From positions 1 through 64,000 of the forward strand of contig NZ_SPMX01000015.1 of assembly GCF_012940005.1 (NCBI RefSeq): a DNA stretch of 64,000 bases. The letters run 5' to 3'. The notes under the pieces are model-generated. The model was given only the letters and a program-made list of their open reading frames with translations. It did no database searches and was not told where the DNA came from. Source of the stretch: Candidatus Accumulibacter contiguus (lineage in GTDB: Bacteria; Pseudomonadota; Gammaproteobacteria; Burkholderiales; Rhodocyclaceae). Made by a program: the position numbers and the translations under genes. Shown one piece after another: positions 10,879 through 63,339 of this stretch. Each line of letters begins with the position of its first letter. Positions within the stretch are counted from its first letter, which is position 1.

Positions 10879-11048
10879 TGCGATTGCCACCGCCGATGCG
10901 ATGCCGAAAATTCGGGGAATATGGCCATTTCTTGTGTTCTCCATTAAGAGTCGATGAAGTAGGTCGCCCATTGCGCGAGGGTTGGATCATATTCTAAGCT
11001 ATACATATCGACGCGCAAATTGTGAAAACCAGACAACGGGGAGGCCCA

Positions 11049-11684
11049 ATGCAAGCGATTCCGAGTTATCGATTTTTGTCTGTCCCTGCGATCGTGGCGA
11101 GCTTTCTGGCAAGAGCCCGTGGACGAACTTCGCTGGCGGTCGTTCGGGCGTGGACTTGCGCATTCGCCGGAGCGCTGGGGATCGCTGTTGCCTCCGCGCC
11201 GGCCGCGGCGCAGGGCCATCCCGAACTGCAAGCCAACGCGCGCGCGGCCCTGAGCAGCCTCGAGGCGCAAGATCCCCTCGCTGCCACGCTCGCAAAGCGC
11301 GCGGTCGCCGTCTTGGTGTTTCCGGAGGTAACGAAGGCGGGGTTCCTGATCGGCGGTGAATATGGCAACGGCATCATGTTCCGGGGCGAACGCTTCGCCG
11401 GGCACTACAACACCGCCGGCGTATCGTACGGACTGCAGGCGGGCGCGCAGACCTTCGGCTACGCGTTGTTCTTCATGAACGAGCGGGCGTTGCAGGCTTT
11501 GGATGCCGCGGGCGGTTTGCAGGTCGGCGTCGGCCCGAGTGTCGTCGTCCTGGATCAGGGCAAGGCCAAGTCGCTCACATCGGAGACGCTGACCAGCGAC
11601 GCGTATGCCTTCGTCTTCGGCCAGCAAGGGCTGATGGCGGGCGTGGGTCTGGAGGGCACCAAGATCACCAAGCTTAATCAGTAA
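11049..11684 (+). CDS. SYLF (YSC84-like) domain exported protein
   Basis: Starting at ATG 11049 after GGGGAGG, the 211-residue product has an N-terminal hydrophobic signal segment ending near APAAAQG. A SYLF-type domain follows: LAKRAVAVLVFPEVTKAGFLIGGEYGNG, then the GVSYGLQAGAQ and LQVGVGPSVVVLD blocks. SYLF proteins bind phospholipids in eukaryotes, and bacterial versions are periplasmic proteins of uncertain role. It is divergently oriented to the DUF1254 lipoprotein, with about 170 bp between them that could hold promoters for both. Confidence 0.82.
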   Translation: MQAIPSYRFLSVPAIVASFLARARGRTSLAVVRAWTCAFAGALGIAVASAPAAAQGHPELQANARAALSSLEAQDPLAATLAKRAVAVLVFPEVTKAGFLIGGEYGNGIMFRGERFAGHYNTAGVSYGLQAGAQTFGYALFFMNERALQALDAAGGLQVGVGPSVVVLDQGKAKSLTSETLTSDAYAFVFGQQGLMAGVGLEGTKITKLNQ

Positions 11685-13162: not shown

Positions 13163-13298
13163 GAGAGTGAAAACGGCCAAATCCGGGCGCCCGCGCGAAG
13201 CGCCGAAGTCCACAGGAACCCTCACGAACCCGCGCAAACACGCGGGAGTACGCAAAAAAAAGACCAACCCGATGAGGGGTTGGTCTTCTTGTTTGGTG
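13163..13298. repeat. tRNA-Ile 3' flank (copy B, includes terminator)
   Basis: This is the better preserved copy of the sequence at 12063-12199. It runs up to the tRNA CCA end and contains the intrinsic terminator of the tRNA gene. The two copies bracket about 1 kb carrying an IS3 fragment and the small KEVVV-repeat gene. Confidence 0.5.
13254..13290 (-). terminator. Intrinsic terminator of the tRNA-Ile gene
   Basis: Read on the minus strand, an 11-bp perfect stem (AAGACCAACCC paired with GGGTTGGTCTT, loop of six) starts seven bases after the CCA end and is followed by an uninterrupted run of T residues. This is a canonical rho-independent terminator. Confidence 0.85.
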
Positions 13299-13617
13299 GG
13301 CCCGCAGGGACTTGAACCCTGGACCAAAGGATTATGCTTACCACTACGGCTTTCGTCGCCTCATCCGAGTTTGTGGTCTGGACTATACCTTCCCGTTACA
13401 GGCTGGCCGTCTAGTCTCTACACCTTTCCCCTTCCTGCCGGGGCTTGGCTCGGTATTGGCATGTCCTGATGGAGTTAGCGTTCACCGAATTTGACCAGTT
13501 CTACCCGCCACCAGATCGAAACTGATCACGGGCAACCCTTGAGGCCAGCCCGACATCCGACGATGTTCGGAATGACCTCGCTAAGTCCTCTGCTCTGACC
13601 AACTGAGCTACAGGCCC
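13294..13617 (-). tRNA. tRNA-Ile(CAU), interrupted by a group I intron
   Basis: The two exons fold into a complete tRNA. The 5' exon is 13617-13584 and gives acceptor GGGCCTG, D-arm GCTC/GAGC and anticodon stem GAGGA up to U33. The 3' exon is 13336-13294 and gives CATAA, stem TCCTT, T-arm CAGGG-TTCAAGT-CCCTG, acceptor CGGGCCC, A73 and an encoded CCA. The anticodon is CAU in an isoleucine-type loop (CUCAUAA), as in the tRNA-Ile2 that needs TilS lysidine modification to read AUA. The acceptor (with one U-G pair) and anticodon stems pair fully. The intron lies between U33 and C34. Met identity is less likely on the overall pattern. Confidence 0.9.
13337..13583 (-). ncRNA. Group I self-splicing intron in tRNA-Ile(CAU)
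   Basis: The 247-nt insert begins right after U33 and ends with G, as expected for the omega G. P1 can form between the exon end GACU and an internal guide GGUC a few bases inside the intron, giving the diagnostic U-G pair at the 5' splice site. The conserved core is visible: GTCAAATTCGGTGAA, CCGAGCCAAGCC, GGTGTAGAGACTAGACGG and GGTATAGTCC, which are the P4-P7 strands of small IC3 introns. These closely resemble the 205-nt intron in the tRNA-Ile(CAU) of Azoarcus. No homing endonuclease is encoded, so splicing should be autocatalytic. Confidence 0.9.
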
Positions 13618-13744
13618 GGGACTGTATTCTACAGGTTTACCGCCCGATCGGCAGGATTCAAGGCAGCGCGCGCAAGGCAGCATGCAGGGTACCACCCTCA
13701 GCCTCGCGACCTTCGGAGTCACCGGCGCCGACTCAGCGAACGGA

Positions 13745-14965: not shown

Positions 14966-15232
14966 GCTGGTACCCTCCGGCTGGTGATGGGGAACACCAA
15001 CCGTAGCACGTACGGGTCGCCGAGGGCAAAGGAATACCGCCGGTATTGGCCTGATCCTTACCCTCACTTGACTCCGCTACCACTCAAAAAGGCGCTGGTG
15101 CCGTTAGATTTCCTGTCCTTTGGGCCGCGGCAATTTGCGGTCAGCGGCAATATTTGCCGGAAATCCGGCAACTGCCGCCGTAATGTTCGTGCAGAGCGAC
15201 AGCGAAGCCGTTGCCAGCAGCAGCTGCAGATA

Positions 15233-15248
15233 TGGCATGAGTATTGCT
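15233..15248 (+). promoter_or_regulatory. Sigma-54-type promoter of the flgB operon
   Basis: TGGCATGAGTATTGCT matches the -24/-12 consensus (TGGCAC-N5-TTGCW) with the required GG-N10-GC spacing. Transcription would start near 15260, about 25 bases before the flgB start. Sigma-54 control of rod and hook genes through an FlrC/FleR-like activator is common in polar-flagellated proteobacteria. Confidence 0.65.
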
Positions 15249-15284
15249 TTGGTGCTGATCATTACTTCTTCAGAGGAGACTACC

Positions 15285-15686
15285 TTGGTCGGCAAGTTGG
15301 ACAGCACGCTTTTCGTGGAGCAGCAGGCGCTGACGCTGCGTGCCAATCGGCAGCAGGTTCTGGCGGGGAATATCGCCAACGCCGATACTCCGCACTATCA
15401 GGCCAGGGACTTCGATTTTGCTGCAGCGCTGAAGAATGCCGTTACTGGCAGAGGGGAAGGCAGGCTGCACCTGACAACTACTTCTGCGCGCCATTTTCAG
15501 GGCAGTGCGGAAGCTGACGCGGTGCGCCTGATGTATCGCCAGGCCAGCCAGGCGAGTGCCGATGGCAATACTGTCGATATGGATGTGGAGCGGACGCAGT
15601 TTGCCGAAAACGCCATTCACTATGAGGCTGGCATGAGCTTTCTCAGCGGCAAGGTCAAGACCCTGCTCGCGGCCTTGCAGCCCTAA
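15285..15686 (+). CDS. flgB: Flagellar proximal rod protein FlgB
   Basis: FlgB is a proximal rod subunit of the basal body, exported by the flagellar type III system. I start it at TTG 15285, seven bases after a strong AGAGGAG, which yields 133 residues, the normal length. The reading frame is open upstream, but those residues lack similarity and overlap the promoter. The protein has the rod-family N-terminal signature ([33 protein letters not shown]) and a C-terminal helix ([30 protein letters not shown]). It is the first gene of flgBCDEFGHIJ, with flgC five bases downstream. Confidence 0.92.
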
Positions 15687-15691
15687 TCACC

Positions 15692-16096
15692 ATGAGCATG
15701 TTCAATACCTTTCACGTGGCCGGCAGTGCAGTGACCGCGCAGGCGATACGCCTCAACGCGGTTGCCAGCAACCTGGCGAACGTGGACAGCGTGCTCGGTT
15801 CGGACGGCAAGCCATATCGGGCGAAACAGGTGGTATTTGCGGCAACACCGATGGGCAACGCTGCGGCACAAGGGGTGCGGGTCACGCAGGTGGTCGAGGA
15901 CAGCAGTCCGGGGCGCATGGTTTATGACCCACGCAATCCTGCGGCCGACGAAAAAGGCTATGTCGCGATGCCCAATGTGAACGTGGTCGATGAAATGACC
16001 AACATGATCTCGGCATCGCGCGCCTACCAGACCAACGTCGAAGTGATGAATACTGCCAAGCAGCTGCTGCTCAAGACGCTGACGCTTGGTCAGTAG
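15692..16096 (+). CDS. flgC: Flagellar proximal rod protein FlgC
   Basis: This 134-residue proximal rod protein shows the N-terminal rod signature ([20 protein letters not shown]) and the typical FlgC C-terminus ([45 protein letters not shown]), with the ANVDS and PNV..V.EM..MI.A.RAYQ.N blocks. It sits between flgB and flgD with very short gaps, so it is translated from the same operon mRNA. Length and motifs are standard and nothing looks unusual. Confidence 0.95.
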
Positions 16097-16116
16097 CCAT
16101 CGAACAGGAGGAACGC

Positions 16117-16800
16117 ATGAACACCGTGCAATCAGTCAACTCAAGCAGCGACGTCTTTGCGGCGATCAATGCCCAGTCAAAGGCCGGAACAGCCGATGCG
16201 AGTTCGAGCAGTGAGGAAGTCCAGAACCGCTTTCTCAAGTTGCTGGTGACACAACTGAAGAATCAGGATCCGCTCAACCCGCTCGACAATGCTGCGGTGA
16301 CCACGCAGATTTCGCAGATCAGTACGGTGACCGGTATCGAGAATCTGAACGCGACGATGCAGACCTTGCTGAGCAACTTCAACGACGGCCAGTCGATGCA
16401 GGCGGCGGGGCTGCTTGGCAAGCACGTTCTGGTCCCCGGCTCCCGGCTTGCTCTGAGCGACGGTGAAGCCGGCGGCGGTGCCAATCTTGCCGGCCCGGCC
16501 GACAAGGTGACGCTGTCGATCCTCGATGCCGCTGGCAAGGTAGTGCAAAGTCAGAACCTGGGTGCGCGCGAGGCCGGCAGCTTCAGCTTCACCTGGGATG
16601 GCCAGACCGATGCCGGTACGGCAGCACCGCCAGGCACCTACAGTTTCACGATCACTGCCGTGCGTGGCAGCGAAAGCGTGGCCGCAGAAACGATGCAGTT
16701 GGGTACGGTTTCTGCCTTGGTCAGGGACAAAGGTGCTTTCCAGCTTGAACTCGCTGGGCTGGGCAGAGTGGATTTCAACAAGGTACAGCAGATTTTCTAG
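16117..16800 (+). CDS. flgD: Flagellar hook assembly scaffold FlgD
   Basis: FlgD caps the growing hook and guides FlgE assembly. The 227-residue protein has the FlgD N-terminal core (NRFLKLLVTQLKNQDPLNPLDNAAVTTQISQISTVTGIENLN) and a C-terminal Ig/tudor-like part with FTWDGQTDAGTAAPPGTYSFTITA, the typical FlgD_ig motif. A GGAGGAACGC ribosome binding site precedes ATG 16117. It is followed by flgE after 16 bases. Confidence 0.95.
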   Translation: MNTVQSVNSSSDVFAAINAQSKAGTADASSSSEEVQNRFLKLLVTQLKNQDPLNPLDNAAVTTQISQISTVTGIENLNATMQTLLSNFNDGQSMQAAGLLGKHVLVPGSRLALSDGEAGGGANLAGPADKVTLSILDAAGKVVQSQNLGAREAGSFSFTWDGQTDAGTAAPPGTYSFTITAVRGSESVAAETMQLGTVSALVRDKGAFQLELAGLGRVDFNKVQQIF

Positions 16801-16816
16801 GAGCAGGGGGTCAACC

Positions 16817-18091
16817 ATGAGTTTCCAACAGGGTTTGAGTGGTCTGAATGCGTCGGCCGCGTCGCTGAATGTGATCGGCAACAACGTCGCCAACGTCGCC
16901 ACCGTCGGTTTCAAGAGAGCGGATGCGCACTTTTCGGATCTCTACGCGGCTTCGCTGGGTATCGGGTCCGGTTCGCAGATCGGTATCGGGGTGACGGTTT
17001 CGGCGGTCCAGCAACAGTTCACCCAGGGTAATCTGACGACTACCAGCAATCCCCTGGACCTGGCACTCAATGGTCCCGGCTATTTTCGCATGAGTCATGA
17101 AGGGGCAATCACCTATACACGCAACGGCCAGTTTCACCTCGACAAGGAAGGTTACGTCATCAACGACAAGAACCTTCGTCTGACCGGTTATCCGGTCGCT
17201 GAGAATGGTGACATTTCCCCGACCAACCCGGTCGAGATACAGTTGTCTGCCAGCCAGATTCCGCCGCGGGCAACCAGCGATCCGCTGGCGGGAGACATCA
17301 GCGCGGTGCTCAATCTCAACGCCCTCGACCCGATCCCGCTGGTGGCGACCTTCGATCCGGCCAATACGCAATCGTATAATTTCTCGACCGCCCTGAACGT
17401 TTTCGACACCCTCGGGGTGATGCACAACTTGAGCACTTACTACGTTCGTACGGCAACTCCCGGTACCTGGGACATCTATGCGACGCTTGATGGGGTGGTG
17501 TCTGCGGATGCTGCTCCAGGGGGTCGGAGTCTGGTATTCGATACCACGGGGGTGCTGACGAGCGTGGTGCCAGCACCGGCTGCAGGAGACCCCTTGTACT
17601 CCATTCCGATGCCTGAATGGGATCTGACGGACGGTGCCACCACGCCCTGGTCGCCGGGAAGCATCGATTACACCGACACCACCCAGTTCGGGAATGATTC
17701 GACCGTCGATCGCCTGATCCAGGGGGGGTATGCCGCTGGCAGTCTGGTGGGCGTGGGCGTTTCGAGAGACGGAATCCTGCAGGGTCGCTACAGCAACAGT
17801 CAGTCGCGCAACCTCGGGCAGGTCGTGCTTGCCAATTTCAGCGACTCCAACGGTCTGCTGAATCTGGGCAACAATGAATGGAGTGAGACTTCGACCTCAG
17901 GCCCGCCATTGCTCGGTGCGCCGGGGACAGGAACGCGCGCCGTGATCCAGTCGGCGACGGTGGAAGACTCGAACGTCGATCTCACCAAGGAACTGGTCGA
18001 CATGATCTCCGCACAGCGCAACTATCAGGCCAATGCACAAACGATCAAGACCCAGGATCAGGTCATGCAGACCCTGGTGAACCTGCGCTAA
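16817..18091 (+). CDS. flgE: Flagellar hook protein FlgE
   Basis: The hook subunit has 424 residues from ATG 16817; I discard the longer frame from 16562 because it overlaps flgD. The N-terminus (SFQQGLSGLNASAASLNVIGNNVANVATVGFKRADAHFSDLYAASLG) and C-terminus (VDLTKELVDMISAQRNYQANAQTIKTQDQVMQTLVNLR) form the D0 coiled coil typical of axial proteins. The middle contains the FlgE D1/D2 region, including NFSDSNGLLNLGNNEWSET. The stop codon overlaps the start of a hairpin-rich repeat that separates flgE from flgF. Confidence 0.95.
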   Translation: MSFQQGLSGLNASAASLNVIGNNVANVATVGFKRADAHFSDLYAASLGIGSGSQIGIGVTVSAVQQQFTQGNLTTTSNPLDLALNGPGYFRMSHEGAITYTRNGQFHLDKEGYVINDKNLRLTGYPVAENGDISPTNPVEIQLSASQIPPRATSDPLAGDISAVLNLNALDPIPLVATFDPANTQSYNFSTALNVFDTLGVMHNLSTYYVRTATPGTWDIYATLDGVVSADAAPGGRSLVFDTTGVLTSVVPAPAAGDPLYSIPMPEWDLTDGATTPWSPGSIDYTDTTQFGNDSTVDRLIQGGYAAGSLVGVGVSRDGILQGRYSNSQSRNLGQVVLANFSDSNGLLNLGNNEWSETSTSGPPLLGAPGTGTRAVIQSATVEDSNVDLTKELVDMISAQRNYQANAQTIKTQDQVMQTLVNLR

Positions 18092-32691: not shown

Positions 32692-33058
32692 GGGAAGTCG
32701 GTCAGGCAGCCGCTGGGCAATAGGTGCAAACCTTGAGCCGAGAGGAAAGTCCGGGCTCCGCAGAGCAGGATGCCGGTTAACGACCGGGCACCGTGAGGTG
32801 ACGGAAAGTGCCACAGAAATCAAACCGCCGATGTTCTCGCGCATGTGGGAGCAGGCAAGGGTGAAACGGCGAGGTAAGAGCTCACCGCGGCCGTGGTAAC
32901 ACGGACGGCACGGTAAACCCCATCCGGAGCAAGGCCAAATAGGGAAGCATGGGCGTGGCTCGCGCTGCTTCCGGGTAGGCTGCTTGAGCGTGCTGGTAAC
33001 AGTACGTCTAGAGGAATGGCTGTCCACGACAGAACCCGGCTTATCGACCGGCTTCCCA
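32692..33058 (+). ncRNA. rnpB: RNase P RNA (class A)
   Basis: The P1 helix is formed by GGGAAGTCGGTC at the 5' end and GACCGGCTTCCC at the 3' end. The universal core AGAGGAAAGTCCGGGCTCC follows at about 32738, then GGTAAACCCCATC, GAGCAAGGCCAAATAGG and the 3' block ACAGAACCCGGCTTATCGACC, all diagnostic of bacterial type A RNase P RNA. Length is about 367 nt. It matures tRNA 5' ends together with the protein subunit (not in this window). Confidence 0.95.
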
Positions 33059-33342
33059 CTTTCCTACTGTTCCACCTTTCCGGCATGGCGGGCAGCGATC
33101 GCTGTCCCTGCTCCAGTGTTCGCTCGCATGTTGCATCGCTGCCAAATGTTCGCTTCCATCTCGTCGTTTGTACCAACACTTAGGAAGCAATCTTGAGAAA
33201 TTACTTTAAGTGTGGTGATTGCAGCATTGTTTTATAGCAAGTAATCTCCTTTCTAACTACCTCAAAAGTCGCTCATAAGTCCTTGTAGCCATTGAGAAAT
33301 GTAAAGCTGTACCTCTTGCTTTAGGCGAGTCCTTAACTTAAA

Positions 33343-60329: not shown

Positions 60330-63339
<3,010 letters not shown>

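Follow-up and report, generated by a model that had tools for sequence, protein, structure and literature searches.

The 64,000-nt stretch of DNA analyzed here (the window) carries a tRNA-Ile(CAU) gene whose anticodon loop is interrupted by a group I intron. The locus raises the question of where this intron is spliced, which of its bases guide the splicing, and whether it is the Azoarcus intron at a shifted site. The gene occupied 13294-13617 on the minus strand, with a 34-nt 5' exon, a 247-nt intron, and a 43-nt 3' exon (Table 1). The original prediction of a small group I intron inside tRNA-Ile(CAU) was supported: its coordinates were borne out, the insert was exactly 247 nt long with a terminal G, and both tRNA exons were intact, as judged from the sequence and by ARAGORN with introns allowed. 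The 47 introns compared were 230-289 nt long. As also predicted, no endonuclease ORF, a mark of mobile (homing) group I introns, was found within the 247 nt. At the −10 position upstream of the gene, TGTAGAAT or TGTAAAAT was present in 22/22 printed loci of the genus (by eye); a consensus promoter scan reported no promoter.

Table 1. Features of the split tRNA-Ile(CAU) gene, in window coordinates.
Feature	Coordinates	Strand	Remarks
5' exon of tRNA-Ile(CAU), G1 to U33, 34 nt	13584..13617	-	acceptor and anticodon stems pair with 3' exon; D stem internal
Group I intron, 247 nt, final base G at 13337	13337..13583	-	
3' exon, C34 to CCA, 43 nt, anticodon CAU first	13294..13336	-	
P1-extension hairpin, contains GGUC (13577-13574)	13541..13579	-	two-sided change in 13/16 pairs; 78.6% of cells paired
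Internal guide GGUU; P1 with exon G30-A31-C32-U33, U33.G wobble at splice site	13534..13537	-	
P10 strand AAG; pairs C34 and U36, A.A mismatch at 35	13538..13540	-	AUG in most relatives
P2 with P2.1	13503..13533	-	
P3 (13498-13493 with 13408-13403), encloses P4, P5, P6	13403..13498	-	
P7 (13416-13412 with 13385-13381), short P8 (13402-13392) inside	13381..13416	-	
P9 with P9.1 and P9.2	13341..13376	-	
Candidate −10 box TAGAAT	13626..13631	-	by eye
Probable intrinsic terminator	13254..13287	-	by eye; scan gave same stem on + strand only

The Rfam group I model (RF00028) matched the core at 13500-13402 with 38.2 bits (E 2.7e-8), which bears out the predicted core strands; the score stayed below the gathering score of 50 bits, which is a database threshold and not a biological feature. 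At E 0.001, RF00028 matched the 5.02-Mb draft genome nowhere else. Owing to the score below gathering, a gathering-level scan of the window listed RNase P RNA only (bacterial class A, complete, 32694-33059, plus strand, 327.2 bits). A positive control, the Azoarcus-type intron of G052, which we take from its sequence to be Azoarcus, scored 49.1 bits and likewise missed the cut-off, so the cut-off is strict for this class. ARAGORN in plain mode found no tRNA in the 64-kb window; with introns allowed, it found a CAU tRNA, which it called tRNA-Met, split by a 247-nt intron ahead of the anticodon. The split tRNA has the acceptor pairs C4-G69 and C5-G68, which, by tRNA identity rules, fit tRNA-Ile2 rather than tRNA-Met. 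Because plain tRNA finding overlooks such split genes, genomes may seem to be without tRNA-Ile(CAU).

The splice junction U33|C34, as first proposed, was borne out by intronless relatives, which join exactly there. In these tRNA-Ile genes, query bases 1-34 and 282-324 are contiguous, for example in G046 (127597-127630 followed by 127631-127673), in G057, and in others. The exon join cannot slide, since query bases 35 (U) and 282 (C) differ, as do bases 34 (U) and 281 (G). U33|C34 thus stands independent of any P1 argument, and the P1 with GGUC that had been offered in its favor is wrong though the junction is right. Splicing one base later on both sides, giving the anticodon UAU, was rejected because the intron would end in C and not in G. 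The tRNA-Leu that ARAGORN reported for L042 and L048 was due to splice-adjacent intron bases; under the rules of a U before the site and a terminal G, both read as CAU with U33|C34. A U before the 5' splice site, in U.G wobble with the guide, was present in 47/47 introns; the U was demanded by the site finder and the G by the guide motif, and both columns were invariant in the 26- and 43-intron alignments, which are independent of the finder. The terminal G was observed in the window itself, and elsewhere it holds by construction, as the later site finders demanded it.

Azoarcus-type introns splice after U36, so the difference in site that the original prediction gave is right. The intron could still belong to the Azoarcus-type tRNA-Ile lineage and have moved three bases within the loop, which we consider quite unlikely. 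It shares with that lineage the tRNA, the order, and a very similar core, and an AU test did not reject a joint clade of 29 proteobacterial U33 introns and 12 U36 introns (p 0.273). Against this, the free tree of 127 cores (every third intron within the genus, plus the other distinct introns if placeable) grouped the 12 Azoarcus-type introns as a single clade (100/99) that stood apart from the 29 U33 introns. These formed two clades (12 rows, 100/97; 17 rows, 100/99), neither adjoining the U36 clade, in a tree with 52/123 inner branches open and a bootstrap not settled. AU tests also did not reject the 29 U33 introns as one clade (p 0.15) or together with four other U33 introns (p 0.167). P8 was very short in 12/12 sampled proteobacterial U33 introns and long in 8/8 sampled U36 introns, and the guide motif lies 31-85 nt into 43 introns, compared with a GUG near the start in the U36 type. 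The placement of the guide, the P1 extension, P8, and the free tree suggest a lineage separate from the Azoarcus type. The "shifted site" of the original prediction therefore holds as a site other than that of Azoarcus; these same features speak against a shift within one lineage, while the AU tests permit common descent.

The guide is the point at which the original prediction failed. In the window, GGUC pairs 4/4 with exon GACU, U.G wobble included, and a guide so near to the splice site is genuine in L101, whose conserved guide sits at that offset. Among the 47 distinct U33|C34 introns, however, the pairing was 4/4 in only 5, one of them L101, and in 10/47 when offsets of 3-13 were allowed. 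The pair of GGUC with exon A31 was kept in 5/26 introns of alignment A1 and 7/43 of alignment A2, without two-sided change. GGUC lies in a variable hairpin, and its bases covary with the far strand of this P1-extension hairpin, some middle pairs of which are poorly kept. It is therefore very improbable that GGUC, 6 nt into the intron and closing a six-base loop, is the guide.

The distal GGUU, 46 nt into the intron, paired with the exon in 47/47 introns (as GGCU where the exon has G31), including 26/26 and 43/43 aligned introns. Because GGG[CU]U was the motif used to locate this guide, finding it in 47/47 is in part built into the search. The motif left U or C free at the variable position, and the matching of guide U with exon A31 (43 introns) and of guide C with G31 (4 introns) is not by construction. 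The four G31/GGCU introns came from Chloroflexota, Gracilibacteria, Kaiserbacteria, and Omnitrophica; the P1 columns were constant in the 43-row alignment, and P1 covariation rests on these four outside introns. The block GGGUUG (5' half) was invariant in A1 (26 introns) and A2 (43 introns), independent of the motif. The first motif hit in the window, at offset 32, was false; pairing and alignment favor the hit at offset 45.

The guide region pairs with both exons. P10 pairing was 3/3 in 32/47 introns, 2/3 in 14/47, and 1/3 in 1/47; the window had 2/3 because its strand is AAG, and it shared the A.A mismatch with L033 and L034. The first 92 nt of a 265-nt stretch, folded alone, formed the GGUU P1, which was absent from the minimum-energy fold of the whole 265 nt. 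RNAalifold gave two of the four P1 pairs, joining C32 and U33 to the same G's, while A31 stayed in the anticodon stem, and it also added intron bases 1 and 2, a competing form of the P1 extension. G30 and A31 are shared by P1 and the anticodon stem, so the two helices compete.

The P3-P8 core, with pseudoknotted P3 and P7, was present, and two-sided changes were found in each of P3-P8. On A2 (43 proteobacterial introns, 57 pairs), 95.0% of cells were paired: 100% in P3, P4, P5, P6, and P7, 98.4% in P8, and 72.7% in P6a. Two-sided change was observed in 213 cells (shuffled mean 68.0) and 27 pairs (shuffled mean 18.0), and 0/500 shuffles, which ignore the relatedness of the introns, reached either count. 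Sliding the partners by 1-3 columns left 29.6-45.3% paired, a comparison that flatters the structure because the window served as its template. Stronger evidence comes from the two-sided changes in P3, P4, P5, P6, P7, P8, and P9.

The genome gave 39 tRNA matches, among which ARAGORN recognized two tRNA-Met, one initiator and one elongator, and a single odd candidate with CAU. Within these matches of the draft we found no other tRNA-Ile(CAU) and no UAU tRNA; the draft is without some tRNAs, as tRNA-Ile(GAU) was also missing. A TilS match above cut-off (170.6 bits) was present. As this is the only tRNA-Ile(CAU) seen and TilS is present, splicing is probably needed to read AUA. That the intron is a dead remnant, unspliced in a cell that copes otherwise, might be suggested by the RF00028 score and the P10 mismatch, but is hardly credible for the only tRNA-Ile(CAU) seen in a draft genome that kept TilS, with a core largely invariant over 26 relatives and no intronless allele among the 28 genus genomes searched (3 of them without any match).

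Our main reading, to which we give a probability of about 0.92, is that this U33|C34 group I intron would be excised under the guidance of GGUU and the tRNA then given lysidine by TilS, the splicing and its order relative to TilS being predicted from sequence. The anatomy, the junction from empty alleles, and the pair changes across relatives are directly established. In the transcript, GGUU would pair with exon G30-A31-C32-U33 as P1, and the 39-nt stretch between the splice site and the guide would fold as the P1-extension hairpin. A guanosine bound in P7 would attack after U33, which is held by the U.G wobble, and the freed U33 would then attack after the terminal intron G. For this second step, the bases just before the guide (AAG here, mostly AUG) would hold the CAU of the 3' exon as P10. 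The mature tRNA would have the loop CUCAUAA, and TilS would make lysidine at C34 in the now-whole loop, so that AUA is read. In the cell, the RNA most likely cuts itself out without the help of a protein, and we infer that TilS acts only after splicing.

A stronger proposal is that the intron reads the anticodon that it interrupts, so that splicing checks anticodon identity and gates AUA decoding. We regard this as unlikely. It draws on the guide together with P10 (AUGGGUU in most relatives), which complements GACU|CAU over seven bases, so that the second step would proceed only on a CAU tRNA; if it were true, TilS could act on the spliced product only. As part of the same doubtful proposal, separate intron lineages would have taken each of the two U's of the CAU loop.

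Accumulibacter is a wastewater bacterium, placed in the order Burkholderiales in GTDB. The intron was found in 25/28 searched genomes of the genus, including its own, of which 22 were full length and 3 were cut at contig ends. DDUX01000115.1 (Candidatus Accumulibacter iunctus) and contig 67 of G023 have the same intron. The remaining 3/28 genomes, two of them <90% complete, showed no match at all, so no intronless allele was seen in the genus. A gene for a PF01053 Cys/Met-metabolism PLP enzyme lay upstream in 16/49 loci, own included, all 16 of the genus; the loci compared for neighbors reach only ~1.5 kb each way. Elsewhere in the window, we observed a gene for a Ysc84-domain protein (11022-11684, plus strand; PF04366, 34.1 bits) and ORFs at 15120-18091 (plus strand) that, by their translations, resemble flagellar rod and hook genes.

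By DNA similarity, 20/399 genomes of the order matched at E 1e-17, own included. The other 19 matches comprised 18 tRNA-Ile U33|C34 introns and one tRNA-Leu intron. The core model gave 74 matches in 62/399 genomes, and the site caller, which demands a U before the site and a terminal G, placed 48/74. These were tRNA-Ile(CAU) at U33|C34 (19, own included) or after U36 (10), tRNA-Leu(UAA) after U34 (10), tRNA-Arg(CCU) after U36 (4), tRNA-Ser(UGA) after U34 (3), and tRNA-Thr(UGU) after U36 (2). An equally good alternative site existed in 5/48, all outside tRNA-Ile (L273, L281, L282, L283, and L290). Of the 26 unplaced matches, 23 were assigned a tRNA by ARAGORN, 16 of these tRNA-Leu; by eye, L305 among the unplaced is a U33-type 3' half, and L308 and L310 lie in tRNA-Ile(CAU) after U36. 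The ratio of U33 to U36 introns is only a guide, as the core model was built from both Ile intron kinds. In an earlier sample of 175 core regions (119 stretches with an exact core match, among the matches listed, plus other loci; repeats included), ARAGORN made 158 calls; 143 of these were placed, 14 with ties. It agrees on Leu after U34, Arg(CCU) after U36, and CAU at 33 or 36, and differs, among the matches listed, in placing tRNA-Thr(UGU) after U34. In the searched sample, U33|C34 introns are no rarer than Azoarcus-type tRNA-Ile(CAU) introns, which adds to the view in which the Azoarcus intron represents betaproteobacterial tRNA-Ile(CAU) introns.

Several further observations were made during these searches. 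The same intron in its Accumulibacter-side form was seen in L231 (G438, family f43) and L144, in a genome of another family, which is possibly lateral transfer or a naming matter. In L245, L249, L272, and L274, an apparent second tRNA-Ile 5' half ~200-235 nt upstream of the split gene reads as a longer alternative intron; these halves would be either attachment-site scars or tandem copies. Pseudomonas phage phi3 (2888-2930) and phage BIBS67 (10751-10793) match the tRNA over 43 nt (90.7%) from precisely C34 onward, and the match overlaps an annotated integrase or recombinase gene, as an attachment site would be expected to do. A 25-nt piece of the core from the window had no exact counterpart among viral contigs. 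Part of the intron was matched by 1264 plasmid records at 60-80% identity, none covering >80% of the query; in the one record inspected, L062 1501-1683 (pCTX-M3 61886-62068), the matching stretch is a group I core that interrupts a tRNA-Leu gene close to aac(3)-IId. Group I introns of a different core occurred in tRNA-Ile(CAU) after U36 (L308 and L310, by eye) and in genes that ARAGORN labels tRNA-Asn and tRNA-Asp (L298, L306, and L311).

The element is of a known kind, and its site and guide layout were not found described in the accessible parts of the literature. The accessible text of PMC3984707, PMC3943268, PMC6125680, PMC5733544, PMC1995217, and PMC11408192 does not give the U33|C34 site, and our literature search, with most subscription papers outside its reach, found no description of U33|C34 for tRNA-Ile. 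The tRNAscan-SE 2.0 paper (PMC8450103) reports group I introns for tRNA-Ile2 (Acidovorax and Burkholderia) and for tRNA-fMet (two cyanobacteria). The former have the same tRNA in related bacteria and may be the same lineage; the passage on them gives neither insertion site nor guide (PMC8450103). No cyanobacterial intron was recognized among the loci compared. Two other introns, L101 (Kaiserbacteria) and L178 (Omnitrophica), lie in what we take, from our own reading of the tRNA, to be tRNA-fMet. They too are inserted at U33|C34 and have GGCU as guide and AUG as P10 strand, but their guide motif is only 5 and 9 nt in, and they form a separate set in the tree. The group I introns of proteobacterial tRNA-Leu(UAA) and tRNA-Arg(CCU) are alike in the core and, by eye, in the P9 end, but are inserted after U34 and U36, respectively, unlike U33|C34.

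The Azoarcus type (G052, L190/L250) shares the group I core, the tRNA, the absence of room for an endonuclease, and a similar size (L190, 205 nt). A 1992 study reportedly found that the Azoarcus intron splices after the third anticodon base. According to PMC6274277, the triplet for the Azoarcus guide in vivo is CAU, in line with splicing after U36. In the Azoarcus type, the intron is inserted after U36 and CAU, as the 5' exon, pairs with a GUG guide close to the 5' end, whereas here the insertion is at U33|C34, P10 holds CAU as the 3' exon, and GGUU stands as guide far from the splice site. With ~8 nt between splice site and guide (by eye), the Azoarcus type is without a P1-extension hairpin, and its P8 is longer. 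Two intron kinds inserted three bases apart, with guides placed differently, offer a natural comparison of how a ribozyme chooses its splice site.
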